A stretch of DNA of 64,000 nt from Bacteroidales bacterium (GTDB lineage: Bacteria; Bacteroidota; Bacteroidia; Bacteroidales; UBA12077), in contig JANQHE010000004.1 of the NCBI GenBank assembly GCA_028282785.1, positions 1-64,000 of the forward strand. The letters run 5' to 3'. Numbering within the stretch: position 1 is the first letter of the stretch; each line of letters begins with the position of its first letter. The notes below the pieces were generated by a model, which was not told the origin of the DNA, did no database searches, and saw nothing but the letters and a program-made list of their open reading frames with translations. Below, piece by piece: positions 28,723 to 47,754 of the stretch. A program made the translations under genes and the position numbers.

Positions 28723-31530
28723 ATGAGATCTTTTTTATTAATAATCTTATTAATAGGGTTTTATCCCTTTTTGAGCGCAGGACAAATAAATCACAAAGGA
28801 AAGCCGGTTTTTGATTTTGAGTTAAAGCAAGAAATTCCTGTTGAGATTTTACCGGAAGTAAAAGTCAGAAAATTAAATAGAGAAGATAAACAAATTGAAT
28901 CAAGATTAAAGACCTTAAGATTCGCTGAATTGTTAGATGTGGATTTTGGTCCTGAAACTCATGGCATATGGGTAGAATCAAAAAACGAGCGGATTTGGTA
29001 TTTGAAAATAAAATCACCCGGAGCGTATTCATTAAGTTTATTATTTGACAGTTACAGATTACCCATAGGTTCCAAATTATATATTTATAATTCAGATAAA
29101 AACCATGTAAGGGGAGCATTTACTTATAAAAATAATAAGATCAACAATATTTTACCAATTGCTCCTGTAAAAGGTGATGAGGTTGTACTGGAGTATCATG
29201 AACCTTATGATGTTGATTTTAAAGGAGAACTGCATATTTCAACGGTAGCACATGATTATAAAAACGTTTTTAATTATTTATCAAAAAGCGAAAAAGGATT
29301 TGGTGATTCGGGTAGCTGTAATGTCAACATTAATTGTGATGATAATGAACTTTGGCAATTGTTAAAACACTCGGTATGTAAAATTACTTATAATGGATGG
29401 CTTTGTTCCGGAGCGTTAATAAATAATACAAAAGAAGACGGGTACCCTTACTTACTAACAGCAAACCATTGCATTAATAATGCCTCAGAGGCTACAAATG
29501 CAATTTTTTACTTTAACTATGAAAGTCCAGGTTGTACTAGCGAAGATGGAAACCAGGATATGACCATCTCAGGATCAACAATTATTGCCACCCCACCTCA
29601 AAAAACAATAGATTTTAGCTTATTGGAATTGAGTGTTAAACCACCTCCGTCATATAAGCCTTATTATGCAGGATGGAATAGAGATATAAGGGATCCTGTT
29701 AGTGTTACTTCAATTCATCACCCCAGCGGAGATATTAAGAAAATTACTAAATCTTATGATGGTGCTACAACAGGTGATTACGGAGAAGGTTATGATGTTA
29801 ACAAGCATTGGTGGATTGATGAATGGGATGAAGGTACTACGGAAGGAGGGTCCTCAGGTTCACCATTATTTGATCAGGATGGAAGAATAATAGGAGATTT
29901 AACCGGAGGTGATGCATATTGTGGATATAATTTCAATGATTATTATCAGCAATTTCATCACTCATGGCAGGATTTTGAAGATTCGAGTTATCAGTTAAAA
30001 CCCTGGCTGGATCCTTTAGATTATGGAATTGTTTCGTTAAATGGTTATTTACCTTATGATACAATACCAACTAATCTCAATGCTTCTATTCAGGATACTA
30101 TTGTAAACGTAAAGTGGAACCATGTTGAAGATACAGCAAATATTGAGTTTTATTATATTTATAGAAATTCTGTAAAGCTGGATTCTATTAACGAACCTGA
30201 CTATAGCGATACCTTAAGTGGTACAAATTTATTATACAATTATTTTGTTACAGCGAAATATAATTCACCTGAAGTATTGGAATCCAATCCATCAAATACA
30301 GTTTATATTCATATTATGGATACAATCATTTTACCATTTTCTGAAACATTTGTTGACGGATTAATTCCTACAGATTGGTACGAAGAGCGATCAAATGACA
30401 CTGTTGGTTGGGAATATAAAGCAGGAGGATTTAACGGAGTTTTGGATACTGCATTTGAAGGTAGTTATAACGCTTATTTTTATAATGAAAATAATGAAAC
30501 ATCGAAATTAGTTTTACCGAATTTTAATTTCTCTTCATACTCCAATTTGAAACTTTCCTTTTATATGCATATGCAGGAATATAATGATGAAGTACATGAA
30601 CTAAGAATATTATATAAAGATGTCGATACAGTTGAATGGAAGACACTGAGAACATATAATACAAACATTGAGACTTGGGAGAAAAAGGAAATTCCGCTTC
30701 CTGAATTGAGTGATAAATATAAAATTGCATTTGAGGGAGTTGGTTTGAAAGGATATGGAATATGTATCGACAGCATATCCGTTATCGAAGATGGAACGTT
30801 TATAGAACCTACCATTTTTGTTAATAAGGACACCATATGTACTACTGACAGTTTACAATTTTCGACAACATTAGACAATACATATAATTTTTTATGGGAA
30901 TTTGGAGATAGTGCAAACCCGCAAGCAGCAGTTGGGAAAGGGCCTCATTGGGTGAAATATAACAGTTCTGCTTTAGTACCTGTGAAATTAACTGTAAATG
31001 GTACTTATATAAAACAGGTTTTTGATATTGCAATAGTTTATGAATCTCCGGCTTTGCCAACTTTTATTAATAATAATGATACCTTAATATCAAGTTCAGA
31101 AGTTGGTAATCAGTGGTATTTCGAAGGAGAACCTATAGAAGATGCTACTGATAATACGTATATAATTACAGAGGATGGAGACTATTATGTGGAAGTTTCT
31201 AACGGTTTTGATTGTGTTTCTGTTTCGGAAGAGAAAAGTTTACTTGTAACAAATATACCAGAGATTCCTAAAGAAAATAACACAGTACAATTTAAAGTTT
31301 ATCCTAATCCTAATAATGGTTCATTTACAATTGAAATTGTGAATTTTGAATCAGAGATATTTGATTATAGGATTTATGATATTACGGGTAAATTGAGACA
31401 GGCAGGAAAACTGGATTCCGAAGAGAAGATTAGAAATATTGAATTAACAAATATTGCAGATGGAGTTTATTTTCTTCAAATATCTTCTATGAAAGAAAGT
31501 TATACGAGCAAGTTACTAATAAAAAAATAG
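28723..31530 (+). CDS. Lysyl-endopeptidase-like serine protease, T9SS cargo
   Basis: 935 residues with a signal peptide (to about LSAGQ). A propeptide-like region (30-195) is followed by a trypsin-fold domain (about 196-440): His249 in YLLTANHC, Asp297 in KTIDFSLLEL and Ser378 in EGGSSGSPLFD form the triad, and paired cysteines (for example C228/C250) fit the disulphides of Achromobacter lysyl endopeptidase. After it come a fibronectin-like segment, a MAM/adhesion-like sandwich (about 540-690), a PKD-like domain (FLWEFGDSANP) and a T9SS type A sorting domain from about 865 (YPNPNNGSFTIEI, ending KLLIKK). It is likely secreted to degrade proteins, by family cutting after Lys, though substrate choice is unproven. 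It sits inside the otherwise conserved malic enzyme-ruvA-sprA block, in the opposite orientation. Confidence 0.88.
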   Translation: MRSFLLIILLIGFYPFLSAGQINHKGKPVFDFELKQEIPVEILPEVKVRKLNREDKQIESRLKTLRFAELLDVDFGPETHGIWVESKNERIWYLKIKSPGAYSLSLLFDSYRLPIGSKLYIYNSDKNHVRGAFTYKNNKINNILPIAPVKGDEVVLEYHEPYDVDFKGELHISTVAHDYKNVFNYLSKSEKGFGDSGSCNVNINCDDNELWQLLKHSVCKITYNGWLCSGALINNTKEDGYPYLLTANHCINNASEATNAIFYFNYESPGCTSEDGNQDMTISGSTIIATPPQKTIDFSLLELSVKPPPSYKPYYAGWNRDIRDPVSVTSIHHPSGDIKKITKSYDGATTGDYGEGYDVNKHWWIDEWDEGTTEGGSSGSPLFDQDGRIIGDLTGGDAYCGYNFNDYYQQFHHSWQDFEDSSYQLKPWLDPLDYGIVSLNGYLPYDTIPTNLNASIQDTIVNVKWNHVEDTANIEFYYIYRNSVKLDSINEPDYSDTLSGTNLLYNYFVTAKYNSPEVLESNPSNTVYIHIMDTIILPFSETFVDGLIPTDWYEERSNDTVGWEYKAGGFNGVLDTAFEGSYNAYFYNENNETSKLVLPNFNFSSYSNLKLSFYMHMQEYNDEVHELRILYKDVDTVEWKTLRTYNTNIETWEKKEIPLPELSDKYKIAFEGVGLKGYGICIDSISVIEDGTFIEPTIFVNKDTICTTDSLQFSTTLDNTYNFLWEFGDSANPQAAVGKGPHWVKYNSSALVPVKLTVNGTYIKQVFDIAIVYESPALPTFINNNDTLISSSEVGNQWYFEGEPIEDATDNTYIITEDGDYYVEVSNGFDCVSVSEEKSLLVTNIPEIPKENNTVQFKVYPNPNNGSFTIEIVNFESEIFDYRIYDITGKLRQAGKLDSEEKIRNIELTNIADGVYFLQISSMKESYTSKLLIKK

Positions 31531-36022: not shown

Positions 36023-37135
36023 ATGAATTTTAGAGAACTATATAAAAAAGCGTTAAACCTTGAATTCTTAACAATAGAAGAAGGACTTTTGTTGTATGAA
36101 GAAGCTCCTTTAGAAGAGTTGATATTTATTGGGAATCAACTTAGAAAAAAGCATAAGCCTGAGAATATTGTAACATGGCAGATTGATCGAAATGTAAATA
36201 TTACAAATGCGTGTATATCCCAATGTAAGTTTTGTAACTTTTATAAAAGGCCAAAAGATGAAGGAGTTTATATAACTTCAATGGAAGAATATAAAACTAA
36301 AGTCGAAGAGTTATTTAAATTAGGAGGGGAGCAACTTTTATTGCAAGGCGGACTGCACCCTAAGTTAAAACTCGATTTCTATACAAACTTATTCAAGGAT
36401 TTAAAATCTGAGTTTCCAAATTTAAAGTTACATGCACTTGGACCTCCTGAAATTGTACATTTGGCCAGATTAGAGAAAAAATCATACAAAAAGATATTAG
36501 AAGCATTAGTTAATGCAGGGTTGGATAGTTTACCAGGTGCAGGAGCTGAAATTTTATGCGATAGAGTGAGAAAAAGTATATCACCTGCAAAGGCAAGCAC
36601 TGAGCAATGGTTGGATGTGATGAAGGAAGCTCATAAATTAAATTTGGTAACATCAGCAACCATGATGTTTGGACATGTTGAAACAAAAAAAGAACGAATT
36701 GAGCACCTTGTTGCAATAAGGGATGTGCAATCACAGAAACCAGAATTAGCCTATGGGTTTTTAGCTTTTATACCATGGCCCTTTCAGGACGAAAATACGT
36801 TTTTACAAAGAGAGTTTGGTATAAAAAACGAAGTTAGATATGAAGAATATATTAAAACCATTGCAATAAGTAGAATTATGCTTCCGAATATTCAGAATAT
36901 ACAAGCTTCTTGGTTAACAGTTGGAAAAGATGTTGCACAAGTGTGTTTGCATGCCGGAGCAAACGATTTTGGTTCCATAATGATTGAGGAAAATGTGGTT
37001 TCCTCGGCAGGAGCAAATTATAAGTTTGATGCGGAAGGTATACAAAATGCGATTCGCGAAGCAGGATTTGAACCTAAACTAAGAAATCAGAAATATGAAT
37101 TACAAAAGTATAAATTAAACAGCTTCCAGAACTAA
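36023..37135 (+). CDS. mqnC: Cyclic dehypoxanthine futalosine synthase (radical SAM)
   Basis: 370 residues. The radical-SAM cluster motif is CISQCKFC (CxxxCxxC) after the MqnC-like WQIDRNVNITNAC. The downstream LPGAGAEIL and the end motif GANDFGSIMIEENVVSSAG favour MqnC over its relative MqnE. MqnC closes the ring of dehypoxanthine futalosine in the futalosine route to menaquinone, the likely respiratory quinone here. Its 3' end overlaps the convergent beta-lactamase-fold gene by 21 bases. No other mqn genes are in the window, as is common, since they are scattered. Confidence 0.92.
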   Translation: MNFRELYKKALNLEFLTIEEGLLLYEEAPLEELIFIGNQLRKKHKPENIVTWQIDRNVNITNACISQCKFCNFYKRPKDEGVYITSMEEYKTKVEELFKLGGEQLLLQGGLHPKLKLDFYTNLFKDLKSEFPNLKLHALGPPEIVHLARLEKKSYKKILEALVNAGLDSLPGAGAEILCDRVRKSISPAKASTEQWLDVMKEAHKLNLVTSATMMFGHVETKKERIEHLVAIRDVQSQKPELAYGFLAFIPWPFQDENTFLQREFGIKNEVRYEEYIKTIAISRIMLPNIQNIQASWLTVGKDVAQVCLHAGANDFGSIMIEENVVSSAGANYKFDAEGIQNAIREAGFEPKLRNQKYELQKYKLNSFQN

Positions 37136-38215
37136 ACGAATAAATTCTTCAGGCTTCCAACTGTTCGGAGTATAAAGGTCTTGTCCTAATCGTACAATAA
37201 TTAGGTTTTTGGAGGGAACAATTACGAGATATTGTCCGAATGCGCCGATTGCCATGTATAGATCGTCCGGTAAATCAACTGTACTTTCAAAAAAAGCATC
37301 TTCTCCTAACCACCATAGGTAACCATAAAATGGATAATCATCACTAAAAGCAGATGTTGATTCCATAATCCATTCTTCCGAAATGATTTGTTTTCCATCC
37401 CAATTTCCATTATTTAAAAATAAATACCCAAACTTTGCAAAATCATGCATGGTAGCATCAATTCCCCAGCCGGCAACTGTATGGTTTTTTGAGTCAGCGA
37501 TCCAGTTTATGTTATCTATCCCAATCGGATTTAGTAAGTTTTTTTCTGCATATTGAAGCAAACTTTTCCCGGTTAATAAGTTTATTAATCCGGATAAATA
37601 CATAGATTCTCCACTATTGTATGACCAATCTGTTCCGGGCTTATTTTTTAAAGGTTTATTCATTACATATTCAAGGTAATCTTCGGAGCGAGACATTTGA
37701 ATAATATCGTTTGAAAAAATACCTTCTTCTGTCCAATCAATTCCGGATGTCATAGTAAGCACATGCGATATTCCAAGCTCTTTCTTCCACTGTTGAGTGC
37801 TATCATTATTAAGTTCGTCAAAATAATCAGAAAACTTATCATCAACACTTTCAATATAACCCTGATCGATCGCAATTCCAATAATTGCTGAAGTAAAACT
37901 TTTTGCAATTGAATAACTTGAATGCTTTATTTCTGAGGTTAAATCGTTAAAATAATCTTCAGCAACTACATAACCATCTTTGATAATCATGTAACCATCC
38001 GTACCAAAGTTGGAATTTGATATATACGTGTGCGCTTCAGATAATGCTTTTGTGTTTACTCCAACTTCTTCGGGACTACAGTATCTCCATTGATTTGTGG
38101 GAAAGTATTTTCCATCATATGTTCCTTCGCCGATAAAATTGGGATTAACAGTTTCTTTTGAACATGAAAAGGAAAATATAGTGATAACAGCGTATATATA
38201 CTTTATTAATCTCAT
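37115..38215 (-). CDS. Serine-hydrolase lipoprotein of the beta-lactamase (S12) fold
   Basis: 366 residues with a lipoprotein signal (lipobox FSFSC, Cys at about 19). The active-site Ser and Lys are in YSIAKSFTSAI (SxxK), and the second motif appears as WSYNSGESMYLSG. This is the class C beta-lactamase/CubicO/esterase superfamily, whose members hydrolyse esters, D-amino-acid peptides or beta-lactams; antibiotic resistance should not be assumed. Probably anchored in the outer or inner membrane facing the periplasm. The start codon directly abuts the sfsA stop (TAAATG), so it is co-transcribed with sfsA. Its 3' end overlaps mqnC. Confidence 0.85.
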   Translation of the reverse strand: MRLIKYIYAVITIFSFSCSKETVNPNFIGEGTYDGKYFPTNQWRYCSPEEVGVNTKALSEAHTYISNSNFGTDGYMIIKDGYVVAEDYFNDLTSEIKHSSYSIAKSFTSAIIGIAIDQGYIESVDDKFSDYFDELNNDSTQQWKKELGISHVLTMTSGIDWTEEGIFSNDIIQMSRSEDYLEYVMNKPLKNKPGTDWSYNSGESMYLSGLINLLTGKSLLQYAEKNLLNPIGIDNINWIADSKNHTVAGWGIDATMHDFAKFGYLFLNNGNWDGKQIISEEWIMESTSAFSDDYPFYGYLWWLGEDAFFESTVDLPDDLYMAIGAFGQYLVIVPSKNLIIVRLGQDLYTPNSWKPEEFIRLVLEAV

Positions 38216-38908
38216 TTAAAGTTCAAACGTTAATTCTTTTACCAGGTTAATCTTCTCTGGTGTTACTTTTGCCTGTACGGGAATTATTTCAACACCACTA
38301 TGATAGGCTACTTTTAAAGTTTCTGCATATTCCGGATCAATTTCTTTAGCAGCAGCAAAAATCGAAATATCCATTCTTTGGATTATGTACAGCATAACTG
38401 CTCGCATGCCATTCTCTTTAACCTTTACCAGGGTTTCCAAATGCTTTTTTCCGCGACTTGTAACTGCGTCCGGGAAAAGAGCATAATCTCCTTCCTTTAG
38501 GGTAACATTTTTAACTTCAATAAAGCAGGTTTCAGTTTCGTTTTTAGCCATTATATCAAATCGGCTATCTCCAAATTTAATTTCCCGTTTAACTTCAGAA
38601 TATCCTTTTAATTTTTCGATTTCATTATTTACAACAGCTTCAAAAGCTAGTTTATTTGGATTTCCTGTGTTTATTCCAATCCAGTCATTATTAATTTTGA
38701 TCATCTCCCAGGTAAATTTTGTTTTACGTTTCGGATCATTTACCGGAGATAAGTAAACTTCCGCATTATGTTCCAAGCAGCTTTTCATAGATCCGGAATT
38801 GGTGCAATGTGCGGTTACGATTTCTCCATTATCTAATATAATATCGGCCAAAAAGCGTTTGTATCGTTTTATTAACCTGCCATGAATGAGTTTTTCGACA
38901 AAAATCAT
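38216..38908 (-). CDS. sfsA: SfsA-family protein
   Basis: 230 residues, the usual length. Family features visible are the N-terminal OB-like region VEKLIHGRLIKRYKRFLADI, HCTNSGSMKSCL, the nuclease-like FGDSRFDIM and CFIEVKNVTL, and FPDAVTSRGKKHLETL. The Asp-Glu-x-Lys pattern resembles a PD-(D/E)xK nuclease core. SfsA was named for stimulation of maltose metabolism in Escherichia coli and binds DNA; its true role is unclear. It sits between the lipoprotein genes, one base from the upstream stop region. Confidence 0.9.
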   Translation of the reverse strand: MIFVEKLIHGRLIKRYKRFLADIILDNGEIVTAHCTNSGSMKSCLEHNAEVYLSPVNDPKRKTKFTWEMIKINNDWIGINTGNPNKLAFEAVVNNEIEKLKGYSEVKREIKFGDSRFDIMAKNETETCFIEVKNVTLKEGDYALFPDAVTSRGKKHLETLVKVKENGMRAVMLYIIQRMDISIFAAAKEIDPEYAETLKVAYHSGVEIIPVQAKVTPEKINLVKELTFEL

Positions 38909-38909
38909 A

Positions 38910-39410
38910 TTATTTTCTGGTCATTGGAAATTTAACCGATTTTTCTTTACCATTTGAAATACCGGATATTTCAGCTAATATAGAGTCGTTTGAAATTTTG
39001 CTATAGCTTATTTTTTGGGGGAAATCATGTTGCGGATTTTCAAAAACCAACATTCTTCCGCTTTTATAGGAAAGTTTAAATTCAACCGGATTTCCTTCAT
39101 TTTGATTTATAACTGTGGGAATATAATAGAGGCCCTCCTCACGTTGAACTATCATTATATTTTCAAGTAAAAGAGAATCGTTCTCTTTAATAAAGATGCT
39201 TTTTCCTACTAAAACAGAATCATTAAGTTTTTGCCATTTTTCAATGGTTTTGCCTTCAGGAACGGTATTTTCCCAGCTGCCAATTAGCCAACTAACTTCT
39301 CCTAAAAGTGAATTGCTATTAATTTTAGAAGATGAATTATTTAAAAAATTACATGAAATAACACTGGATAAAAAAACGAAAAAGAGACATATTTTCAGAA
39401 ACAATTTCAC
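38910..39410 (-). CDS. DUF6265-like lipoprotein
   Basis: 166 residues with a lipoprotein signal ending in SSVISC (Cys at about 20). The domain starts VSWLIGSWENTVPEGKTIE and holds the FENPQHDFPQKISY motif, both typical of DUF6265, a lipocalin-like beta-barrel family of unknown function. It is probably attached to a membrane and could bind a small ligand. It precedes sfsA with one base between them and is likely co-transcribed with sfsA and the hydrolase. Confidence 0.8.
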   Translation of the reverse strand: MKLFLKICLFFVFLSSVISCNFLNNSSSKINSNSLLGEVSWLIGSWENTVPEGKTIEKWQKLNDSVLVGKSIFIKENDSLLLENIMIVQREEGLYYIPTVINQNEGNPVEFKLSYKSGRMLVFENPQHDFPQKISYSKISNDSILAEISGISNGKEKSVKFPMTRK

Positions 39411-39457
39411 GATACATTCAATTCAAATGGGAACCAAATATAATAAAAAAGACAATT

Positions 39458-41311
39458 CTAAAGTAGTTGATTCATAATTAATAAAAGTTCATTTTGATTA
39501 ATAGGCTTTGTAATATATCCATTGCATCCGGCCTTAAAAGCTTTTTCTTTATCACCGGACATTGCATAAGCAGTTTGGGCAATGATGATAACATCTTGAT
39601 TATACTGTTTTATCATTCGGGTTGCTGTATAACCATCCATAACAGGCATTTTTATATCCATCAATATCAGGTTAATATCTTTTTCCCCGTGTACCATATC
39701 TACGGCTTGTTTACCATTACGCGCATGTAATACTTTTTTGCATTTACCTTCTAATATCTCTTCTAAATATATGTTTGCAGTTTCATCGTCATCAGCAATA
39801 AGCACAGTGATTTCACTTAATTTTTCTATGCTATCAATTTTCTTTTCTCGAGCTACAACTTTGTCAACAACTTTTTTACCTTTAACTGGTATTGTAAAAT
39901 AGAAGCTCGACCCTTTGTTTTCTTGTGATTCTACTCGTATTTCTCCTTTTAGTATTTCTACATAAGCTTTTGCAATGGACAACCCCAAACCCGCTCCTTC
40001 GTATGGTTGGACTATTTTTAGATCGGCCTGAACAAAACGTTCAAATATTGCATCTAAACGATCTTGTGGAATTCCTATTCCAGTATCTTTCACATAAAAC
40101 TCAAACTCATTTTCTTTTAATTCATAACCAAATTCAATTTTACCATTTGTAGTATACTTAACAGCGTTTTTAATTAGATTGGTAAATATTGCAGTGATTT
40201 TTTCATTATCACTAAAAACATATGCTTTATTATCCGGTAGACTTGTTACGTACAATAACTCATTCTTTTTTTTCTTTGCTTGCGGTTCAAAGAAATTAAA
40301 TAAGGAAGCAAACATTTCATGTATGTTTATATTACTATAATTAACTTCCATGTTACCAGATTCAATTTTTGAAATGTCAATAATATCATTAATAAGGTTT
40401 AGCATTCTTATGCCTGACTGTTCAATGATTGATATGTATTTTTGTTGTTTTTCAACCGGTAGATTTGGTTTTTTAAGAAATCTTGTAAAGCCAAGTACAC
40501 CATTCATTGGAGTTCGGATCTCATGGCTCATATTGGCTAAAAATGCTGATTTTAATTTGTCGCTTTCTTCAGATTTTACTAAAGCTTTTTTTAGTTCCTC
40601 TTCAATTTGTTTATGGTGTGTTATATCTCGTATTGATATAAGAAACGTTTCTTTATCATTCCAGTCAATGTCAATGGTTCGCATTTCGCCAACACGCTCT
40701 TCTTCATCTTGTCTAACAATATTAATTTCTGTATGCTCGCCCTGAATAACAGGATAACCAAATACTCTGCTAAGTAATTCATCAATCGTTAATTTAAACA
40801 TATCTTCTGCTGATGGATTGGCAAATGATATCTTTCCATCAGTATCAACGACTAAAATGGCATCCGGATTACGAGCAATTATTTTTCTTAAACGACTTTC
40901 GCTTTTACGAAGAGAGTCTAATGTGCGTTTGTGCCGCATAAATGCTTCAACTCGTGCTATTAATTCCCGATCATCTATTGGCCGTACTATATAACCATCC
41001 GCGCCTTGCTCTAAAGCAGCGGCTTGTTGTTGCGATGAGGTAAATGCACCGGTTATCATCACAATATACATGTAGGGATGCTGATTGTCAGTTTTAATTT
41101 TTTCCAGAATATCCAGCCCTAATTCATTATGGAGTATTATATCCAAAAGCAAAAGATCGGGTTCATTCTTTTTTAATATTTCGAAAGTTTCATGTGAGTT
41201 AGAAGCGGTAAAAACTTCATAACCTAAATCAGAAAATATTTCAGAATAGATTCCCAAGTTGAAAGGTTCATCATCAACAAGTAATATTTTGTCTTTTGCG
41301 TTTTCTGCCAT
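39458..41311 (-). CDS. Hybrid histidine kinase REC-PAS-HK-REC of the kai operon
   Basis: 617 residues: receiver 1 (Asp57 in LLLLDIIL; the usual phospho-site Lys is replaced by Arg110 in IVRPI), PAS (about 140-235), HisKA with His263 in NMSHEIRTPMNG, HATPase (AVKYTTNGKIEFG, DTGIGIPQD, GAGLGLSIAKAYV), and receiver 2 with Asp552 in LILMDIKMP and a normal Lys in ITKPI. No membrane segment, so it is cytoplasmic. It is the last gene of the operon, two bases after kaiC, which suggests it reads or transmits the KaiC state. No DNA-binding output is fused; a phosphorelay through receiver 2 to an unlinked regulator is the natural guess. Confidence 0.9.
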   Translation of the reverse strand: MAENAKDKILLVDDEPFNLGIYSEIFSDLGYEVFTASNSHETFEILKKNEPDLLLLDIILHNELGLDILEKIKTDNQHPYMYIVMITGAFTSSQQQAAALEQGADGYIVRPIDDRELIARVEAFMRHKRTLDSLRKSESRLRKIIARNPDAILVVDTDGKISFANPSAEDMFKLTIDELLSRVFGYPVIQGEHTEINIVRQDEEERVGEMRTIDIDWNDKETFLISIRDITHHKQIEEELKKALVKSEESDKLKSAFLANMSHEIRTPMNGVLGFTRFLKKPNLPVEKQQKYISIIEQSGIRMLNLINDIIDISKIESGNMEVNYSNINIHEMFASLFNFFEPQAKKKKNELLYVTSLPDNKAYVFSDNEKITAIFTNLIKNAVKYTTNGKIEFGYELKENEFEFYVKDTGIGIPQDRLDAIFERFVQADLKIVQPYEGAGLGLSIAKAYVEILKGEIRVESQENKGSSFYFTIPVKGKKVVDKVVAREKKIDSIEKLSEITVLIADDDETANIYLEEILEGKCKKVLHARNGKQAVDMVHGEKDINLILMDIKMPVMDGYTATRMIKQYNQDVIIIAQTAYAMSGDKEKAFKAGCNGYITKPINQNELLLIMNQLL

Positions 41312-41313
41312 GA

Positions 41314-42849
41314 TTATGTTTCCTTATTAAATAAATCATCTAAGCGGTCAACTTCTCCTCTTAAAACCAAATGGGGATTACCGGAAATTATTCCGGAAAC
41401 ATTTCGGAATGGTTTGCCAATATGCATTCCATTTTCATCAATTGTTAATTCTTTGATGTCTTTATTATGTTTTGATCCGCGCATTTTTAATACGGTTAAA
41501 CCTCTTCGCATTTCACCATAAGCCTCAACATAACGAAGAAGGATAATTGAATCTGTAATAGTTGAAATATGGCCTTCTGTAATAGAAGATCCACCCATTA
41601 GGGATGTAGTTGTTGAAGTAAATAATCCGGCAATCTCTTTATGTTTAATAAAAGAAGTTAAACCAATAATAAACTCTCTGAAACTTTTTAGGGTTGAGAC
41701 TCTTTCCAATGCCGAAAGGCTGTCAACTGCCACACGCTGTGGCTTATATTCTTCAATTATTTCTTTCATTTTAATCAGGTGATCCTCTAATCCCGTAACT
41801 TCAGGATATTCGCAAACCACTTTTAGCAATCCATCTTTTTCCGCCCTTTCAAAATCGATACCCCAACCAGATGCATTTCTAAACAATTGTTCTCGGCTTT
41901 CCTCAAATGCAAATAATAAAGAACGTTCTTTCTTAGAAGTACCTCCTTCCATAAATTCAGTTGCCATTAAAGTTTTTCCGGTGCCGGTGGCTCCGGATAC
42001 CAATATGATTGAATCGCGAAAAAATCCTCCATTACACATTTCATCTAATTCCTGACTTCCTGAGGTTATTCTAATGTTGGATGATTTTTGTTTTAGCTCA
42101 ATAGCTGAAAGTGGTATTATTATTAATCCGGATTCGTGTGAAATAGAAAATGGGTATTCTCCTTTTTGATGGTTTGTACCTCTGTACTTCAATATCTCAA
42201 TCGTTCTTCTTCGCTTTTCATCTTCCAGGATATTCCTTAAAATAACTACATTGTCTGTAACGAACTCTTCAACACCAAACCGGGCAATTTCTCCATATTC
42301 ATCAATTCTTTCTGCTGTCATTAATGATGTTACATTCATTTTCTTTAAAGCATAAGCAATTCTGAAAAGCTCGCTCCGAACAATAAAGGTATCTGTAAAC
42401 TGTGTGAAAATTGCACCAATGGAATCCATAGAAAGCCTTTTTGCACTTGTTTTTTTTACGGCATTTTCGATTCGGGCCAAAAGAGCTCCCAAATCATAAT
42501 CGCCGGTAACAACATACGCTTCATTTGGTTGTGGAGAAGCATCAACAAATGCCCACTTGTTTTCTTTTTCCCATTTTTCAATAGGCCAACCAAAACTTAA
42601 CATATTTTTCCTAATATCTTCAATTGGTTCCTCAAATGTTATAAAAACACCATTTTGATTGAACTGAGAAATTCCTTCGGCTAAAAATTGTGTTGCAAAA
42701 ACTGTTTTTGCACTACCGGCGGAACCGGATAATAAAGTTGTTCTGTTTATGGGCAAACCACCTTTTGATACATGGTCGAATCCAGGAATTCCGGTTTGTA
42801 GTTTTTTTATTGAATTTATTTTTTCATTCATAGTTGTAATTTTATGCAT
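41314..42849 (-). CDS. kaiC: KaiC, double-domain clock ATPase/autokinase
   Basis: 511 residues, against 519 in Synechococcus. Domain CI has Walker A GSAGSAKTV and the catalytic Glu pair in FITFEEP; CII has GATGTGKTL and FAFEES. The CII phosphorylation loop is kept as ITEGHISTITDS, putting Ser429 and Thr430 where cyanobacterial Ser431 and Thr432 lie, with Thr424 for Thr426. The A-loop region FRNVSGIISGNP is also recognisable, with a shorter C-terminal tail. KaiC hexamers cycle slowly between phosphorylated states under KaiA and KaiB. The first ATG overlaps kaiB by eight bases; an internal ATG at 42831 is an alternative start. Coupled with kaiB by overlap. Confidence 0.95.
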   Translation of the reverse strand: MHKITTMNEKINSIKKLQTGIPGFDHVSKGGLPINRTTLLSGSAGSAKTVFATQFLAEGISQFNQNGVFITFEEPIEDIRKNMLSFGWPIEKWEKENKWAFVDASPQPNEAYVVTGDYDLGALLARIENAVKKTSAKRLSMDSIGAIFTQFTDTFIVRSELFRIAYALKKMNVTSLMTAERIDEYGEIARFGVEEFVTDNVVILRNILEDEKRRRTIEILKYRGTNHQKGEYPFSISHESGLIIIPLSAIELKQKSSNIRITSGSQELDEMCNGGFFRDSIILVSGATGTGKTLMATEFMEGGTSKKERSLLFAFEESREQLFRNASGWGIDFERAEKDGLLKVVCEYPEVTGLEDHLIKMKEIIEEYKPQRVAVDSLSALERVSTLKSFREFIIGLTSFIKHKEIAGLFTSTTTSLMGGSSITEGHISTITDSIILLRYVEAYGEMRRGLTVLKMRGSKHNKDIKELTIDENGMHIGKPFRNVSGIISGNPHLVLRGEVDRLDDLFNKET

Positions 42850-43120
42850 TTTTAACTAAATCCAGCCCAATAAGTACTTTTTCTATATCTGTTAAATCAC
42901 CAATAATACGTTTAATGGGAGCGGGGAGAGATTTTATTAAAGTTGGTGTAGCTAATACCTTATCGTCTTCAGCTTCTTGCGGAGATTCTAATACATCAAT
43001 TATATTTAATTCGTATTCATTTCCTAACTCTTTTGCACAAATTTTTTTTAAGGTATGTATCGCGCGGTCTGATCGCGCTGTTTTTCCTGTTATGTAGAGT
43101 TTTAGTAAGTATTTAGCCAT
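42842..43120 (-). CDS. kaiB: KaiB, clock protein
   Basis: 92 residues, a little shorter than cyanobacterial KaiB because the acidic C-terminal tail is missing. The thioredoxin-like core is very well kept: YLLKLYITGKT, DVLESPQEAEDDKVLATPTL, and the fold-switching half with SLPAPIKRIIGDLTDIEKVL and GLDL. The Gly and Asp whose mutation traps the switch state (Gly88/Asp90 in the Thermosynechococcus protein) are present. By homology it binds phosphorylated KaiC on the CI ring and drives dephosphorylation. It overlaps kaiC and lies 73 bases after the receiver-KaiA-like gene. Confidence 0.94.
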   Translation of the reverse strand: MAKYLLKLYITGKTARSDRAIHTLKKICAKELGNEYELNIIDVLESPQEAEDDKVLATPTLIKSLPAPIKRIIGDLTDIEKVLIGLDLVKNA

Positions 43121-43193
43121 AATATATATGATTTTTTTAATTTTACCTTTACCTTATGAATTATCGATTATTATAAAATATTGCAAATACAAA

Positions 43194-43961
43194 TTATATT
43201 TTGTTTCGATAAAAATTAAGTAAATAACCCATTATTTCAAGTAAAACAATTCTTGATTCTTCTTTAATTAAAAATGCCCTTTTGGCAGAGTCTTCATTTA
43301 ACATGTATTTTAATGCTTCTTTGTGTACATCGATTATATCTCTTGCGCCTGCTTGTAAAAAGCCTAATTCATTTGTTATTTTTTTAGTTGGATCAGAGTT
43401 GTTTTCATTGTTTTTAAACATTCTTTGCTGAATGGCTTCATTTAAAATAACCGTATATTCTTTAATTATTCTTTTGAACTCATTTGGGTATGCATTTTTT
43501 ATAAGTTCCTGTTCATAAATTTTAGTAGTTTGCTCTGTACTTTGTTGGTCGAATGGTTCAAAGGTCGTTTCTCGTAACTTTACAATAGAATCTTTGAACC
43601 TGATGATAGATTTAATTCGTGCAATTAATTCACGAGCTTCAAATGGCCTGCTTAAATAATCATCAGCACCTATTTCTAAACCAAAAATGTAATCGTCTTT
43701 CGTAACTTTAATCCCTGATAATAAGATGATGATAACATCAACAAATTTGGGATTGTTTTTTATTTGAACACAGACGTCTGTTCCTAATTTATCAGGAAGC
43801 ATAACATCCAATAAAATTAAATCAGGTTTATTCCTTTTAAGATATTTGAGGCATGCATTACCAGAATCTACAGTATCCACATTATAATCTTTTTCTAAAA
43901 TGTTAGAAATAATTTCAAGGTTTATATGGTCATCGTCAACAATTAGTATGGATTTACTCAT
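43194..43961 (-). CDS. Receiver domain fused to a KaiA-C/RsbU_N-like helical domain
   Basis: 255 residues. Residues 1-120 are a CheY-like receiver: acidic pair Asp10/Asp11, phospho-Asp52 in LILLDVMLP, but Arg105 in place of the nearly invariant Lys (LSRPF). Residues about 145-255 are all-helical. They hold ARDIIDVHKEALKYM and end SRIVLLEIMGYLLNFYRNKI. By eye this matches the end of cyanobacterial KaiA, where VEIHMELM is followed by a helix ending in an MYRRSI-type motif. The related RsbU N-terminal four-helix domain has similar spacing (ISIHRKVLKEL). KaiA itself is a pseudo-receiver plus this helical domain, so the layout is KaiA-like. Its place directly before kaiB supports a role in setting KaiC phosphorylation. 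The homology is a visual judgement and not computed. Confidence 0.75.
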   Translation of the reverse strand: MSKSILIVDDDHINLEIISNILEKDYNVDTVDSGNACLKYLKRNKPDLILLDVMLPDKLGTDVCVQIKNNPKFVDVIIILLSGIKVTKDDYIFGLEIGADDYLSRPFEARELIARIKSIIRFKDSIVKLRETTFEPFDQQSTEQTTKIYEQELIKNAYPNEFKRIIKEYTVILNEAIQQRMFKNNENNSDPTKKITNELGFLQAGARDIIDVHKEALKYMLNEDSAKRAFLIKEESRIVLLEIMGYLLNFYRNKI

Positions 43962-43968
43962 AACAGTT

Positions 43969-45156
43969 TTATGGGTTTAATGGTAAACTAAAATAAAATG
44001 TTGAACCTTTTCCAACTTCGCTTTCCACCCCTATGTGGCCATGATGTGCCTCAATGATTCTTTTAACAATGTACAATCCTAATCCGGTACTTTTTTCTCC
44101 GGCAGTACTCATAGTACTGGTTTTTTGAAATGGTTTGAATAAAGTAACGACTTCATCTTTTGCAATACCTTGTCCTTGGTCCTTAATATTAACAAGAACT
44201 TCAGTTTCATTTTGTATTAACGACACCAAAATTTGTGTGTCATTATTTGAATATTTTATTGCATTCGTCAATAAATTACTTATTACCTGGTCAATTTTAT
44301 TATTATCGATTTTTAATATCAAAGAATCTACATTGGTTTCGAAATGAATTTTAATATTTTTTTTCTTTGCAAGCTCCTTATTTAAATCGATGTTGGTTCG
44401 AATTAAAAGGACTAAATTAGTGGGAGTACTATTAATCTTAATATTGCCAGACTCAATAGCAGATACATCGAGTAACTCATTAACTAACTCAAGCATGAAA
44501 CTACTTAATGTTTTTATGAGGTTTACAAAACGTTTTTGTTTCTCATTAAGGTTATCGCCTTTTTTTTCTAAAAAATCTGATAAGGCATTAATGTTACTTA
44601 GCGGGTTTCGTAAATCGTGGGCAGCCATTCCTAAAAAACGGTTTTTAAGGCCGTTTAACCTTTCCAGTTCCGCATTTTTGCGATTTAATTCCCGCTGCAA
44701 GTTAACTAATTCGTTGTTAACCCGTGAAAGTTCATCAAAAATTGCTTCATTTTCTTTATCTCGAATCAGAATTTTTTCGCTTTGACTTTTTAAAAGTTTC
44801 CTAATCTGATTCGATTGTTCGTTATTAATTTGTTGAAGGAGGTTTGTAAATTCAACCGCTTCTTTATGGTTATCGGCTCCAATTAATAATATTTGTTTAT
44901 TTAAAAGAACTCCCATAAAATATAAGGATTTGAACTTATCATTGTAGTATATGTTTAAACGGTAATCAAAAGCTATATTTTTACTTTTAACCTCTAAAAT
45001 CATGTTTAGAGATTTATTATGCGAATGTTTATCGATGATGGTAGTAAATAACTTTCCTTCACAACCATTTTTAGAGAAACCGAAATCATCTTTTAAAACT
45101 TGCTTTATTACTCCATTTTCATCACACAGAAAAGCACATCCTTTTATTTTATTCAT
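43969..45156 (-). CDS. Histidine kinase of the kai operon
   Basis: 395 residues, soluble. The N-terminal ~100 residues look like a PAS-type sensor (CAFLCDENGVIKQVL), followed by a coiled coil (110-170), HisKA with His180 in LGMAAHDLRNPLSN, and HATPase with ISNLLTNAIKYSNN, DQGQGIAKD and STGLGLYIVKRII. Key residues are intact. It lacks the KaiB-like domain of SasA, so it is not a SasA orthologue, although it could have the same job of reading KaiC. The receiver protein seven bases downstream is the obvious phospho-acceptor candidate. Five bases separate it from the cobalamin-binding gene upstream. Confidence 0.88.
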   Translation of the reverse strand: MNKIKGCAFLCDENGVIKQVLKDDFGFSKNGCEGKLFTTIIDKHSHNKSLNMILEVKSKNIAFDYRLNIYYNDKFKSLYFMGVLLNKQILLIGADNHKEAVEFTNLLQQINNEQSNQIRKLLKSQSEKILIRDKENEAIFDELSRVNNELVNLQRELNRKNAELERLNGLKNRFLGMAAHDLRNPLSNINALSDFLEKKGDNLNEKQKRFVNLIKTLSSFMLELVNELLDVSAIESGNIKINSTPTNLVLLIRTNIDLNKELAKKKNIKIHFETNVDSLILKIDNNKIDQVISNLLTNAIKYSNNDTQILVSLIQNETEVLVNIKDQGQGIAKDEVVTLFKPFQKTSTMSTAGEKSTGLGLYIVKRIIEAHHGHIGVESEVGKGSTFYFSLPLNP

Positions 45157-45161
45157 AGTTT

Positions 45162-46220
45162 TTATTTTTCCATTAATTTGTTTGCAAAAGTTACTGCTTT
45201 TTGAGCGTCCTCTGCATAACCATCGGCATTAAATTCCTGCCAGTTTTGTCCAATACCTCGTAATGCATATCCTCCAATTAATATTTTTACCTTCCCACTC
45301 ATCTTTTCACGAATGCGCTCGATAGTGCTTTTCAGTAATCCAATTTGATATGGTATAGCAATGGATAACCCAACTATATCTGCATTATTTTCTTCGATTG
45401 AATAGAGAATAGAATCGGCCGGTGTATTAGCTCCAAGGTAATAAGTATCCCAGCCATTCATTTCGAAAAAATCTGCAACCATTCTAATTCCAATCTCATG
45501 TAATTCTCCACCTACACTTGCAGCTATCATTTTACGCCCAATGCGTTCTGTTGTAAATATATAAGGATAAAGCTGGCTCATAATCTGCTGAGTTGCAGCG
45601 GAACAGAAATGTTCTTTAGCAACGGTTATTTTATTATCGAGCCATAATCGTCCAATCTCATACTGCGATTTTTGAAAAACATGCATATAAATGTCTTCAA
45701 CGGAAGTTCCATTTTTTACTGCATCTAAAATGAGTTTACCGGCAGTTTTTCTGTCTCCTTCCAGAAGGGCTTTATTATAGTTCATGGCCAGTTTACCAAG
45801 AGGATCGAGAACATTGATATAAGGTTTTGAATCTTCAATAGGAATTTTCATTTGTTCCAAACCTGCTTCAATGTATTTAGTTACCAAATCGGATTGCTCT
45901 TTAGGAAACTCTTTTTCAATAACATCTTTTGTGCATTTTAAGGTTTCAATCATTGCTTCATCAGGAAATTTCAAACCCCGAAAAAGTTTTTTAACCCAGA
46001 TTACATAATCTGTAAAAATGGTTTTATTACCCGTTTCAATAGATTCAGCAAGAAAAGGTAGGTGGTATGCTGCATCTCGAAGACTAAGTTGTTTGCCTCT
46101 TTTCCCAAACTTGTTCCAGAATTTAGGTTGGCGTTGATATTGAAGTTCTACAATTTTTTTAGCTAGCTCACCTGCTTGTAATGAAAGTTCATTTTTTATT
46201 TTTGCACCTAAAGTTTCCAT
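45162..46220 (-). CDS. Cobalamin-binding protein with CarH-type light-sensor motif
   Basis: 352 residues, first gene of the kai operon. Residues 1-140 are a helical N-terminal domain (RQPKFWNKFGKRGKQLSL, then AAYHLPFLAESI) instead of the MerR DNA-binding domain of CarH. Residues 140-225 are a four-helix cobalamin cap with W193, nine residues, E203-H204 (WLDNKITVAKEH), exactly the W-x9-EH signature of CarH/AerR photoreceptors. The Rossmann-like B12 domain follows, with the lower axial ligand His241 in GELHEIG and the later LSIA and LIGGYA motifs. In CarH these residues bind adenosylcobalamin, and light breaks the Co-C bond and changes assembly. Light or B12 sensing as input to the Kai proteins is inferred from the motif and operon position. 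Corrinoid methyl transfer is a less likely alternative. Confidence 0.85.
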   Translation of the reverse strand: METLGAKIKNELSLQAGELAKKIVELQYQRQPKFWNKFGKRGKQLSLRDAAYHLPFLAESIETGNKTIFTDYVIWVKKLFRGLKFPDEAMIETLKCTKDVIEKEFPKEQSDLVTKYIEAGLEQMKIPIEDSKPYINVLDPLGKLAMNYNKALLEGDRKTAGKLILDAVKNGTSVEDIYMHVFQKSQYEIGRLWLDNKITVAKEHFCSAATQQIMSQLYPYIFTTERIGRKMIAASVGGELHEIGIRMVADFFEMNGWDTYYLGANTPADSILYSIEENNADIVGLSIAIPYQIGLLKSTIERIREKMSGKVKILIGGYALRGIGQNWQEFNADGYAEDAQKAVTFANKLMEK

Positions 46221-46252
46221 GAGTTTTTGAGTTGATACTGATTGTAACTATA

Positions 46253-46283
46253 CAAATTACAAAAAGTTAGGGTATAGTACAAA
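46253..46283 (-). promoter_or_regulatory. Candidate promoter of the kai operon
   Basis: On the minus strand TTTG (46283-46280) is followed after 19 bases by GTAATTTG (46260-46253), close to the TTTG-N19-TANNTTTG pattern. It lies 33 bases upstream of the first operon gene, in the region shared with the divergent cysteine-cluster gene. Confidence 0.4.
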
Positions 46284-46325
46284 GGATTCATAAATCTTTT
46301 TTATCATTGCAGGAAACTTTTAAAA

Positions 46326-46577
46326 ATGGAATGTCGCCCGGGTTGTGCAGCATGTTGCATATATCCTTCCATATCTTCATCAATTCCAGGTATGCCCAAT
46401 GGTAAACCTGCAGGGGCTTCTTGTATTCAATTAAAAGAAGATTTAAGCTGTAGTATCTTTGGTTCACCCGAACGTCCAAAAGTTTGCGCAGGGTTTAAAC
46501 CAGAAAAGCTAGTTTGTGTTGATAGCGCTGAAGAAGCTTATAAAATTATCGCTTCGCTGGAGGGAATAATTTTGTAA
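46326..46577 (+). CDS. YkgJ-like cysteine-cluster protein
   Basis: 83 residues. It starts MECRPGCAACCIYPS and keeps further cysteines in SCIQLKEDLSCSIFG and PKVCAGFK, the CxxxCxxCC-type cluster of the YkgJ family, thought to bind zinc or an Fe-S cluster. The PERPKVCAGF stretch is typical. Function of the family is not established. It is divergent from the kai operon and shares the 105-base upstream region with it. Confidence 0.8.
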   Translation: MECRPGCAACCIYPSISSSIPGMPNGKPAGASCIQLKEDLSCSIFGSPERPKVCAGFKPEKLVCVDSAEEAYKIIASLEGIIL

Positions 46578-46683
46578 ACCGTAATACTTCTAAATTGGAA
46601 AAATTCTTGATAAGTTTATATCATCATAATGTTCAGTTAAAACATTAGTGCTATTTTTTTGTTGTAATTAAATAGAATAACTA

Positions 46684-46950
46684 ATGAGTTTTGATATGAC
46701 AAGGGAGGAATTTAAAGAAATGTCACTTGCCGAGCAAGGGATGTTGCTAATAAGTAGGGGTAAACATTTAACTCAAGTTAAAAAAGGGAACCAACTATTG
46801 AATCTTTATTCAATAGATGATTTTTTTGTAGAGGTCTTTTATTCGGTTTTATCTGACAAAATTGATAAAATTGAAATTATGACTGATCTTTCACGGATAG
46901 ATCATTATATTGATGAAAAACAAAAGGAAGAAAAGCCGCATATAGATTAA
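46684..46950 (+). CDS. Small unknown protein, 88 residues
   Basis: A soluble, charged protein starting MSFDMTREEFKEMSLAEQGM, with a middle VKKGNQLLNLYSIDDFFVEV and a C-terminal helix (DHYIDEKQKEEKPHID). I do not recognise the family; the pattern of a short strand-rich core framed by helices would fit a small DNA- or protein-binding domain. A decayed copy of its 3' half is found at 54778-54888, which shows the gene belongs to a duplicated or mobile small family and supports its being real. It stands alone after the cysteine-cluster gene. Confidence 0.65.
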   Translation: MSFDMTREEFKEMSLAEQGMLLISRGKHLTQVKKGNQLLNLYSIDDFFVEVFYSVLSDKIDKIEIMTDLSRIDHYIDEKQKEEKPHID

Positions 46951-47007
46951 TGTAATGTATTTTATGCCGAAATAATTAAATCATCAAGAAAATTATTATC
47001 ATTAATA

Positions 47008-47754
47008 TCACAAGACGGGAATTCTTAAGGTCTTGTTGTTTGGAGGAGTAAATAATTCTTCCTTTAACGGAATATTGAATTCGATTTCTAAAATTCGATT
47101 TTTATGTTTATATGGACCATTAGGCCCTTCTCCTTTACCAATAGTTTTGTGAGCAATAAGTATATTTTTTTCTTTTTTATAATCTAAAAATCTTATGGTA
47201 GTGGTTTCAGTTGGTTTTAACTGATATATCAAATTGGTTTTAGCATCTAAATAGTATTCCCAACTTGAACCATCAAACCATTTTACTTTAATAACGTTTG
47301 TTTTGATTCCATTAACTAATTTTGTGCCGGTGTATTCCAAATTCATTTTGTCATTGGGTTCCATAACAAATACCCCTAAAAACCAATAGAAACTTCCATT
47401 AATTATTAAAGCGTTTGAGTATTTTTCCGAAAGTTTTGACCATTTATAGACATTATCGGTAGAGTCAAATTCTGCTTTCCATGAGTTTGTTCCATCTGTT
47501 GTCGTAAACCTGGGGGCAGTTAAATTCCCGAAGATTCTATAATTTGGTTTTTTCTGATAACTATAGTTCAAACGAGAAGAGTTATTTTCTTCGTGAATTA
47601 ATTTTCTTTTGATATAAACAGTATTGATATTGTCCAGATTATCTTTTCCTCCTATCGCATCAATATATTTATTAATTATAAGGTTTAGAGAGTCGGTTTG
47701 ACTAAAAATACCTGCAGATAATAAAATCAAAGGAATTATAAAAAAATATTTCAT
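47008..47754 (-). CDS. LolA/LppX-like periplasmic protein
   Basis: 248 residues with a signal peptide (to about GIFSQ). The opening LNLIINKYIDAIGGKDNLD, then repeated strands such as YQKKPNYRIFGNL, GTNSWKAEF and WEYYLDAKTNLIYQ, is the pattern of the outer-membrane-lipoprotein-sorting (LolA-like) fold in Bacteroidota, a half-barrel that carries a lipid or lipopeptide. Its ligand is unknown. It follows the DJ-1 fusion gene on the same strand with 15 bases between, so they are likely co-transcribed. The stop codon is TGA. Confidence 0.7.
   Translation of the reverse strand: MKYFFIIPLILLSAGIFSQTDSLNLIINKYIDAIGGKDNLDNINTVYIKRKLIHEENNSSRLNYSYQKKPNYRIFGNLTAPRFTTTDGTNSWKAEFDSTDNVYKWSKLSEKYSNALIINGSFYWFLGVFVMEPNDKMNLEYTGTKLVNGIKTNVIKVKWFDGSSWEYYLDAKTNLIYQLKPTETTTIRFLDYKKEKNILIAHKTIGKGEGPNGPYKHKNRILEIEFNIPLKEELFTPPNNKTLRIPVL

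Follow-up and report, generated by a model that had tools for sequence, protein, structure and literature searches.

A photocobilin-type protein gene and a histidine kinase gene adjoining kaiA3, kaiB and kaiC genes in a Bacteroidales genome

Introduction

Could a Kai timer outside cyanobacteria receive light through a photoreceptor encoded in its own gene cluster? This question is raised by six consecutive minus-strand genes (39458-46220) in the first 64,000 nucleotides of contig JANQHE010000004.1 from a Bacteroidales bacterium (assembly GCA_028282785.1), a stretch that we refer to as the window. We found that these genes encode, in the direction of reading, a photocobilin-type protein, a histidine kinase, a KaiA3-type protein, KaiB, KaiC of the KaiC3 kind and a hybrid histidine kinase, and that the same order recurs in a distant Ignavibacteriaceae metagenome-assembled genome (MAG). 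We propose that the locus joins a cassette for light input to a timer of the KaiA3-KaiB3-KaiC3 type, a proposal that we regard as evenly poised.

Photocobilins, or photoglobin-B12 proteins, are in print (PMC10979010, PMC10151467), as are kaiBC homologues in Bacteroidetes (PMC5953948), and receiver-KaiA fusions encoded upstream of kaiBC were published in 2024 as KaiA3, also from outside cyanobacteria (PMC11372060). The original prediction, made from the letters of the window, knew of no description of the whole combination. As for a receiver-KaiA gene upstream of kaiBC, that claim is overtaken by the KaiA3 publication, but the union of such genes with a photocobilin-kinase pair was not found described in the open-licence literature searched. 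The word Kai is absent from the main text of the photocobilin paper PMC10979010 and from PMC11796333, and among the open-licence papers that pair kaiC and kaiB with cobalamin, or kaiC with B12-binding, none deals with such a locus in its title or abstract opening. The parts are known, and the union of the photocobilin-kinase pair with KaiA3-KaiB3-KaiC3 appears to be new.

Results

Gene 1 (45162..46220, minus strand, 352 aa) is a photocobilin-type protein, with adenosylcobalamin (AdoCbl) and bilin binding and a response to light predicted. An N-terminal globin domain (approximately residues 1-130) is followed by B12-binding helical and Rossmann domains (PF02607, PF02310), and the N-terminal third matches the Phycobilisome family PF00502 at 1.1e-06, above the Pfam cut-off. 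The B12 motif reads W193-x9-E203-H204 and E239-x-H241; in an alignment of 16 sequences including the window's, W193, E203, H204 and H241 are invariant, and position 239 is E or D. The best two PDB sequence matches of gene 1 are the photocobilins 8j2x and 8j2w, reached via the B12 part (2.2e-17). A profile of 16 N-terminal globin domains, taken from the window, the Ignavibacteriaceae locus L082 and L003-L016, matches allophycocyanin at 1.2e-07 and the globin domain of 8j2x at 8.7e-05. Only D49, F69 and W75 are invariant columns in this alignment, and D49 pairs, in a significant profile alignment, with the Asp of the CxRD motif of allophycocyanin and phycobiliproteins. In addition, D49 and W75 line up with Asp270 and Trp296 of SasPcob, which are biliverdin contacts in its crystal structure (PMC10979010), although this gapless single-sequence alignment, with an offset derived from His108, scores -0.8 bits and is not significant alone.

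The position of the CxRD Cys is occupied by Ser in gene 1 and by Cys in 7 of the 16 aligned sequences. Covalent bilin attachment is conceivable in these seven relatives (L003, L004, L005, L007, L008, L011 and L014), which have Cys at the phycobiliprotein chromophore-attachment position (C-x-x-D). Published photocobilins are without this Cys, and AdoCbl by itself is enough for their response to green light (PMC10979010). An AlphaFold model of gene 1, made from a two-sequence input (mean pLDDT 76), has an all-helical N-domain and a Rossmann-like C-domain, and among the 50 matches listed by a fold search with it, methionine synthase, CarH-like proteins and photocobilins score comparably, while none is a phycobiliprotein. 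The protein had originally been described as CarH-type, which is correct for its B12 part and incorrect for its N-terminus, where the PF00502 globin is found and no helix-turn-helix (HTH) family matches in Pfam at E up to 1. The NCBIfam CarH model scores 52.1 bits against a cut-off of 400. A plain CarH is ruled out for gene 1, which lacks the HTH and has the globin in its place.

Gene 2 (43969..45156, minus strand, 395 aa) encodes a histidine kinase with HisKA and HATPase_c domains (Pfam), H180, and an N-terminal domain of about 100 aa plus linker. This N-terminal region and the linker, with its NNEQ-like motif, align with the kinases of L003-L016 and L082, of which L005, L007, L011 and L014 have a divergent kinase part. 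The PAS domain that had been assigned to this kinase was not recovered, given that no PAS family matched at E up to 1 (Pfam). SasA was considered and rejected on domains, since gene 2 has no KaiB-like N-terminal sensor, with no match to PF07689 at E up to 1.

Matches to gene 1 at 1e-30 occur in 34 of 395 genomes sampled in the phylum. Besides the window's gene, 14 genes carry globin and B12 parts in one frame (L003-L016), and in all 14 of these other full-length cases the next downstream gene is a gene 2-related kinase. In genome G184, the globin and B12 parts lie in two overlapping frames, followed likewise by a gene 2-related kinase, and at L017 and L021 frames with the B12 part only are followed by a kinase. 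Two B12 proteins of similar length, at L019 and L020, have no clear globin match (none and 0.0038, respectively), and no gene 2-type kinase is listed at either locus. We also observed small frames with weak globin-profile matches (7.4e-05 and 0.0019) beside a B12-only gene at L025 (1007-1459) and L026 (947-1420), possibly a two-gene form of the same sensor.

Gene 3 (43194..43961, minus strand, 255 aa) is KaiA3, and by homology it is predicted to stimulate KaiC autophosphorylation. Its receiver matches PF00072 at 6e-25 and keeps D52, which aligns with the Asp of the KaiA3 receivers compared. A profile of the KaiA3 C-domain, built from five sequences of cyanobacterial and Competibacteraceae loci, finds gene 3 with 95 bits and E 1.1e-28 as the sole match among the 793 open reading frames (ORFs) of the window, confirming the KaiA-C-like domain first suggested for this gene, and the gene lies directly upstream of kaiB and kaiC, as KaiA3 genes do. 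The relation to canonical KaiA is weak: hhalign gave E 2.3e-04 and probability 44 over 104 columns, a ten-sequence KaiA3 profile searched against PDB placed KaiA at 0.09 and ranked an unrelated protein above it (0.042), the five-sequence profile found no KaiA in PDB, and PF07688 was not listed by Pfam for gene 3. The AF2 model (mean pLDDT 82) has a helical C-domain, and its fold comparison was dominated by receiver domains, with KaiA absent from the 50 matches listed.

The inputs to the KaiA-like domain look as if they can be swapped; its N-terminal partner is a receiver in the window, L083, L084 and L088. Other partners were also recorded, namely REC-PAS in L082 (7465-8667) and Cache-HAMP-PAS in L087 (6608-8590), where the Cache match is below cut-off, while nothing convincing was recognised next to the KaiA-like C-domain at L064 (1764-2735) and L068 (480-1457).

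Gene 4 (42842..43120, minus strand, 92 aa) is KaiB by PF07689 (94.7 bits; cut-off 27) and NF006798 (112.6 bits; cut-off 110), and falls below the cut-off of TIGR02654 (106.5 vs 145.3 bits). Gene 5 (41314..42849, minus strand, 511 aa) is KaiC by NF006799 (734.7 bits; cut-off 408) and TIGR02655 (653.4 bits; cut-off 546.25), and consists of two KaiC ATPase domains in which E73, E74, E316, E317, S429 and T430 are invariant across 10 of 10 aligned sequences. It is 64-76% identical to nine KaiC relatives from one genome scan; identity to the five cyanobacterial proteins, of which four come from KaiA3 loci, is 71-72%. Gene 5 most probably belongs with the KaiCs of KaiA3 loci, and we infer the name KaiC3 from the locus because a receiver-KaiA gene adjoins kaiB and kaiC in L083, L084, L085 and L090. 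Canonical KaiA loci with their own kaiB and kaiC (L112, L113 and L115) are present in three of these genomes.

The Walker A motif in the CI domain of gene 5 reads GSAGSAKT, and all ten aligned KaiCs have GS[AS]KT, with Ala or Ser instead of Gly before the Lys, a change that may affect the slow ATPase that sets the pace. The C-terminal KaiC tail is kept in 9 of 10 sequences, gene 5 included, and is missing in L089, a Bacteroidales MAG. This absence in a locus with no kaiA ORF before kaiB fits KaiA acting on the tail, as a single case; L086 has the tail and no kai neighbours, indicating that tail and kaiA neighbour do not always occur together.

Gene 6 (39458..41311, minus strand, 617 aa) is a REC-PAS-HisKA-HATPase-REC hybrid kinase with H263 and an Asp in both receivers (LMDI in the C-terminal one, by receiver alignment). 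For this gene, as for KaiB and KaiC, Pfam bears out the original label. CikA has a GAF domain and a C-terminal pseudo-receiver without Asp, and SasA has a KaiB-like N-terminal sensor. Gene 6 was rejected as a CikA, given that GAF has no Pfam match in it and its C-terminal receiver keeps the Asp. Kinases that begin with a receiver also follow the kai genes in L082 (cut by the contig end), L089, L045 and L047.

The KaiC scan, a single pattern-based pass over contigs of 84,980 species that misses divergent copies, yielded 9 loci. At L082, in the Ignavibacteriaceae MAG, the complete set of six genes is found with order and direction unchanged. Its KaiC is 77% identical to gene 5, and the contig stops within its gene 6, so that a kinase domain is not seen there. 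Because this contig shows the same order, the six-gene arrangement is not due to chance. The search for the same gene order in relatives that the original prediction had proposed thus located it in this distant MAG, and synteny is not absent from all relatives; within the window's family, KaiC of this kind was absent from the 24 other genomes searched. L089 carries a cut kinase gene, kaiB (550-878), kaiC (1148-2614) and a REC-first hybrid kinase gene; no long ORF lies between the kinase gene and kaiB, and the rest of that genome was not searched for KaiA. The order kaiA3-kaiB-kaiC3 occurs at L083, L084, L085 and L090 and at the Competibacteraceae locus L088, and L087 has genes for a KaiA-C protein, KaiB, KaiC and a PAS-HK-REC kinase.

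KaiB was found in 39 of the 395 genomes of the phylum sample. Among the 30 whose KaiB locus was read, G005 and G087 alone show this KaiC type besides the window; 9 of the 39 were left out of this reading, and one of these, G373, was read otherwise. In G373 (L045, 4094-10570), genes for a photocobilin, kinase, KaiB and REC-PAS-HK-REC kinase stand together, and G184, of the same genus, has the same set (L047, 5657-12133), with the photocobilin split over two frames. In both, the KaiB gene is flanked by the photocobilin-linked kinase gene and the gene of the REC-first hybrid kinase, and the hybrid kinases carry a GAF-like stretch below cut-off. Neither genome has a KaiC match at 1e-15, which would reflect either a KaiC-free use of KaiB or the loss of KaiC. 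In the class of L082, such a KaiC was found at 1e-150 in 1 of 294 genomes (L082's own), and in the window's order KaiC was found at 1e-40 in 2 of 99 genomes (its own and one at 37% identity), the count within the window's family being 2 of 25 (again its own and one at 37% identity). The six-gene cluster is rare and patchy.

In the KaiC tree, the window is sister to L082 (91/92, not starred), the distant KaiCs are far off, and the deeper forks among KaiC1 and KaiC3 sequences are unsettled. Deep forks are also unsettled in the KaiB and hybrid-kinase trees, the latter grouping the window's hybrid kinase with that of L089 (91/92). The gene 2 tree does not reject a clade of the window and L082 (p 0.149), and genes 1 and 2 of L082 fall beside those of G373 (88/81 and 88/84). 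These trees, with their long branches, hint at repeated joining of photocobilin-kinase pairs to kai loci, or repeated replacement there. Should the trees be right, this repetition speaks for function.

The ORF calls agree with the layout first described, with six minus-strand genes, the first four spaced by 5, 7 and 73 bases, followed by an 8-base overlap and a gap of 2. A single candidate promoter had also been proposed, which we could not substantiate: sigma-70-like sites in 36500-47500 (both strands) numbered 41, compared with 50.9 in shuffled sequences, and were not above chance, and a Bacteroidota-type promoter pattern had 0 matches in the window. The transcription unit may exceed six genes, because three same-strand genes continue downstream of gene 6 at gaps of 47, 1 and 0 bases. 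No minus-strand terminator-like site is listed between gene 6 and the DUF6265 gene (38910..39410, minus strand), which begins 47 bases past gene 6 and is possibly on the same transcript. The downstream stretch (37115-39410, minus strand) encodes the DUF6265 protein, SfsA and, as judged by eye, a protein resembling serine hydrolases, and may share the transcript. No Rfam family matched in the window at gathering scores. The operon has a GC fraction of 0.328 and a tetranucleotide correlation of 0.85, within the range of its genome (mean 0.816, sd 0.086; 33 same-size pieces from 18 other stretches), and a misbinned contig is not supported. A defence-system reading was also discarded, as PADLOC gave weak matches only, in receiver and P-loop parts.

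Elsewhere in the window, we noted a 1751 aa protein (12467-17722, minus strand) whose single chain combines domains of the Ser/Thr kinase, AAA_16, TPR-like, GAF and histidine kinase types. A SprA-type secretion/motility protein (20650-27954, minus strand) and two proteins with type 9 secretion tails (2353-11454 and 28723-31530, plus strand) are consistent with Bacteroidota.

Discussion

The identities of the parts, the residues that donate and accept phosphate and the recurrence of the order can be taken from the sequences; the sensing of light, the transfer of phosphate by gene 2 to gene 3 and timing are proposed from gene order and residues. We propose that gene 1 would hold AdoCbl, and perhaps a bilin, and that light would alter its quaternary structure, as the light states of photocobilins are described to do while activating associated enzyme domains (PMC10979010). 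The light-altered protein would then change the activity of its partner kinase, gene 2, a signalling step that is supported because the kinase follows in 14 of 14 other cases. Gene 2 would act as phosphate donor for the KaiA3 receiver in gene 3, for the first receiver of gene 6, or for both, which is plausible given gene order and residues. KaiA3 would raise, or stop raising, the autophosphorylation of KaiC, with KaiB opposing it. This action of gene 3 on KaiC is supported by homology to the Synechocystis proteins, where KaiA3 binds KaiC3, promotes its autophosphorylation and, together with KaiB3, produces a damped oscillation in vitro (PMC11372060). Finally, the REC-first hybrid kinase encoded by gene 6 would read out the state, an output role suggested by its position. 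According to PMC11372060, a cognate histidine kinase, yet to be identified, could in theory supply the KaiA3 receiver, and gene 2 is a candidate placed for this role.

Several observations weigh against this proposal. The photocobilin-kinase pair is not clock-specific, because 13 of the 14 other pairs have no visible kai gene in the stretches read (the contig ends 286 bases past the kinase gene in L040 and 119 bases past it in L043), the only exception being L045 of G373. Gene 1 had no match at 1e-10 in three cyanobacterial KaiA3 genomes, the Kuenenia genome or the L089 MAG. The KaiC3 kind was found in 0 of 19 other same-genus genomes, several of them less than 90% complete, and in 0 of 24 other family genomes, and this same-genus absence gives no support to vertical inheritance within the genus. 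The window and L082 are not sisters in the gene 1 tree (AU p 0.017), in disagreement with the KaiC tree. In gene 3, and likewise in the first of the two gene 6 receivers, Arg replaces the Lys that is conserved in receivers. Lastly, heme oxygenase (PF01126) is absent from the window's genome and was found in 0 of 15 sampled genomes with full-length photocobilins (the window's included), compared with 43 of 380 others, a contrast that indicates neither enrichment nor avoidance (Fisher p 0.39; 1 of 16 vs 42 of 379 and p 1.0 when G387 is counted, which has PF01126 and, at L020, an unclear globin). Because no PF01126 occurs in these 15 genomes, the supply of biliverdin is unexplained, and other enzymes, uptake or a different globin ligand may account for it. 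By analogy with the green-light response described in PMC10979010, AdoCbl alone would still permit green-light sensing by gene 1.

The alternative that survives best retains all of these parts and dispenses with the clock: the locus could be a light- or energy-gated switch, or an hourglass, that serves a stress or lifestyle response and does not sustain a rhythm by itself. We consider this a strong contender, if a little short of an even chance. KaiBC systems without self-sustained rhythm are known, and the KaiA3-driven oscillation of Synechocystis is itself damped in vitro (PMC11372060), while G373 and G184, where the photocobilin, both kinases and KaiB occur and KaiC has no match at 1e-15, suggest that part of the module may run free of an oscillator. 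However, the window encodes the full trio of core proteins known to oscillate in Synechocystis, with the phosphosites and the KaiC tail kept.

It is also conceivable that gene 1 senses cobalamin or redox levels with a bilin-free globin, so that the kai genes would be tuned by B12 or oxygen status. The missing PF01126 in the window's genome and in the 14 other full-length photocobilin genomes of the sample agrees with such a sensor, as does the Ser in place of the CxRD Cys, but the published photocobilins are equally Cys-less and yet respond to green light with AdoCbl alone (PMC10979010). Moreover, the Trp and the Glu-His pair that surround the adenosyl group as in CarH, as well as the Asp and Trp aligned with biliverdin contacts, are invariant in 16 of 16 sequences, and we find this explanation rather unlikely. 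That a transferred kai cluster merely landed beside a photocobilin-kinase pair, without functional link, could be argued from the patchy spread of this KaiC kind (none in the 24 other family genomes, one of which has a KaiC at 37% identity) and from the discordant gene 1 and KaiC trees, but seems highly improbable given the same order in the Ignavibacteriaceae MAG, the pair with KaiB in G373 and G184, and an operon composition that fits the range of its own genome.

Returning to a light-input cassette joined to a timer, its most far-reaching form would be a self-contained, transferable, light-entrained circadian oscillator outside cyanobacteria, in which a two-chromophore photocobilin sets KaiA3B3C3 directly via a dedicated kinase that phosphorylates the KaiA3 receiver; this form we hold to be doubtful. 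If it is true and the host is non-photosynthetic, a Kai clock would here share an operon with a photoreceptor of its own, receive no time cue from photosynthesis, and have been assembled more than once. With the six purified proteins, direct light perception by a Kai timer outside cyanobacteria becomes testable, and so does the input to the KaiA3 receiver, which the authors of PMC11372060 leave open. Photocobilins, for which PMC10979010 gives wider targets as network predictions, would gain a concrete partner, the conserved kinase, and a pathway.

Gene 1 shares the W-x9-EH and E/DxH motifs of the B12 domain with CarH, from which it differs by having no MerR-type HTH match. The distant kaiC-kaiB clusters of the same phylum also have kaiC, kaiB and often kinase neighbours, but their KaiCs are 34-37% identical (three compared) and far off in the tree, and kaiC precedes kaiB; no KaiA3-type match was found at two such loci (L109 and L119). 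With SasA and CikA of cyanobacteria, the window shares the presence of histidine kinases beside or around a Kai oscillator.

The nearest relatives of the timer genes are the KaiA3-KaiB3-KaiC3 systems of Synechocystis (sll0485) and related organisms, which likewise have a receiver with a kept Asp and a KaiA-like C-domain upstream of kaiB and kaiC3. In PMC11372060, the KaiA3 receiver is termed NarL-type, whereas PleD, PhoB and similar models lead among the best 25 of 92 NCBIfam matches of gene 3, with no NarL model among those 25. At the cyanobacterial KaiA3 loci L083, L084, L085 and L090, the neighbouring genes gave no match to a photocobilin, to a kinase of the gene 2 type or to a hybrid kinase. 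Like published photocobilins, gene 1 joins a globin of the phycobiliprotein kind to a CarH-type B12 domain with the same motifs in a stand-alone protein without enzyme domain. Its globin precedes the B12 domain, in contrast to SasPcob, where the B12 domain comes first; this order is not new, because PMC10979010 notes photocobilins with the B12 domain at either end. What sets gene 1 apart from them is that it is paired with a histidine kinase gene and linked to kai genes.

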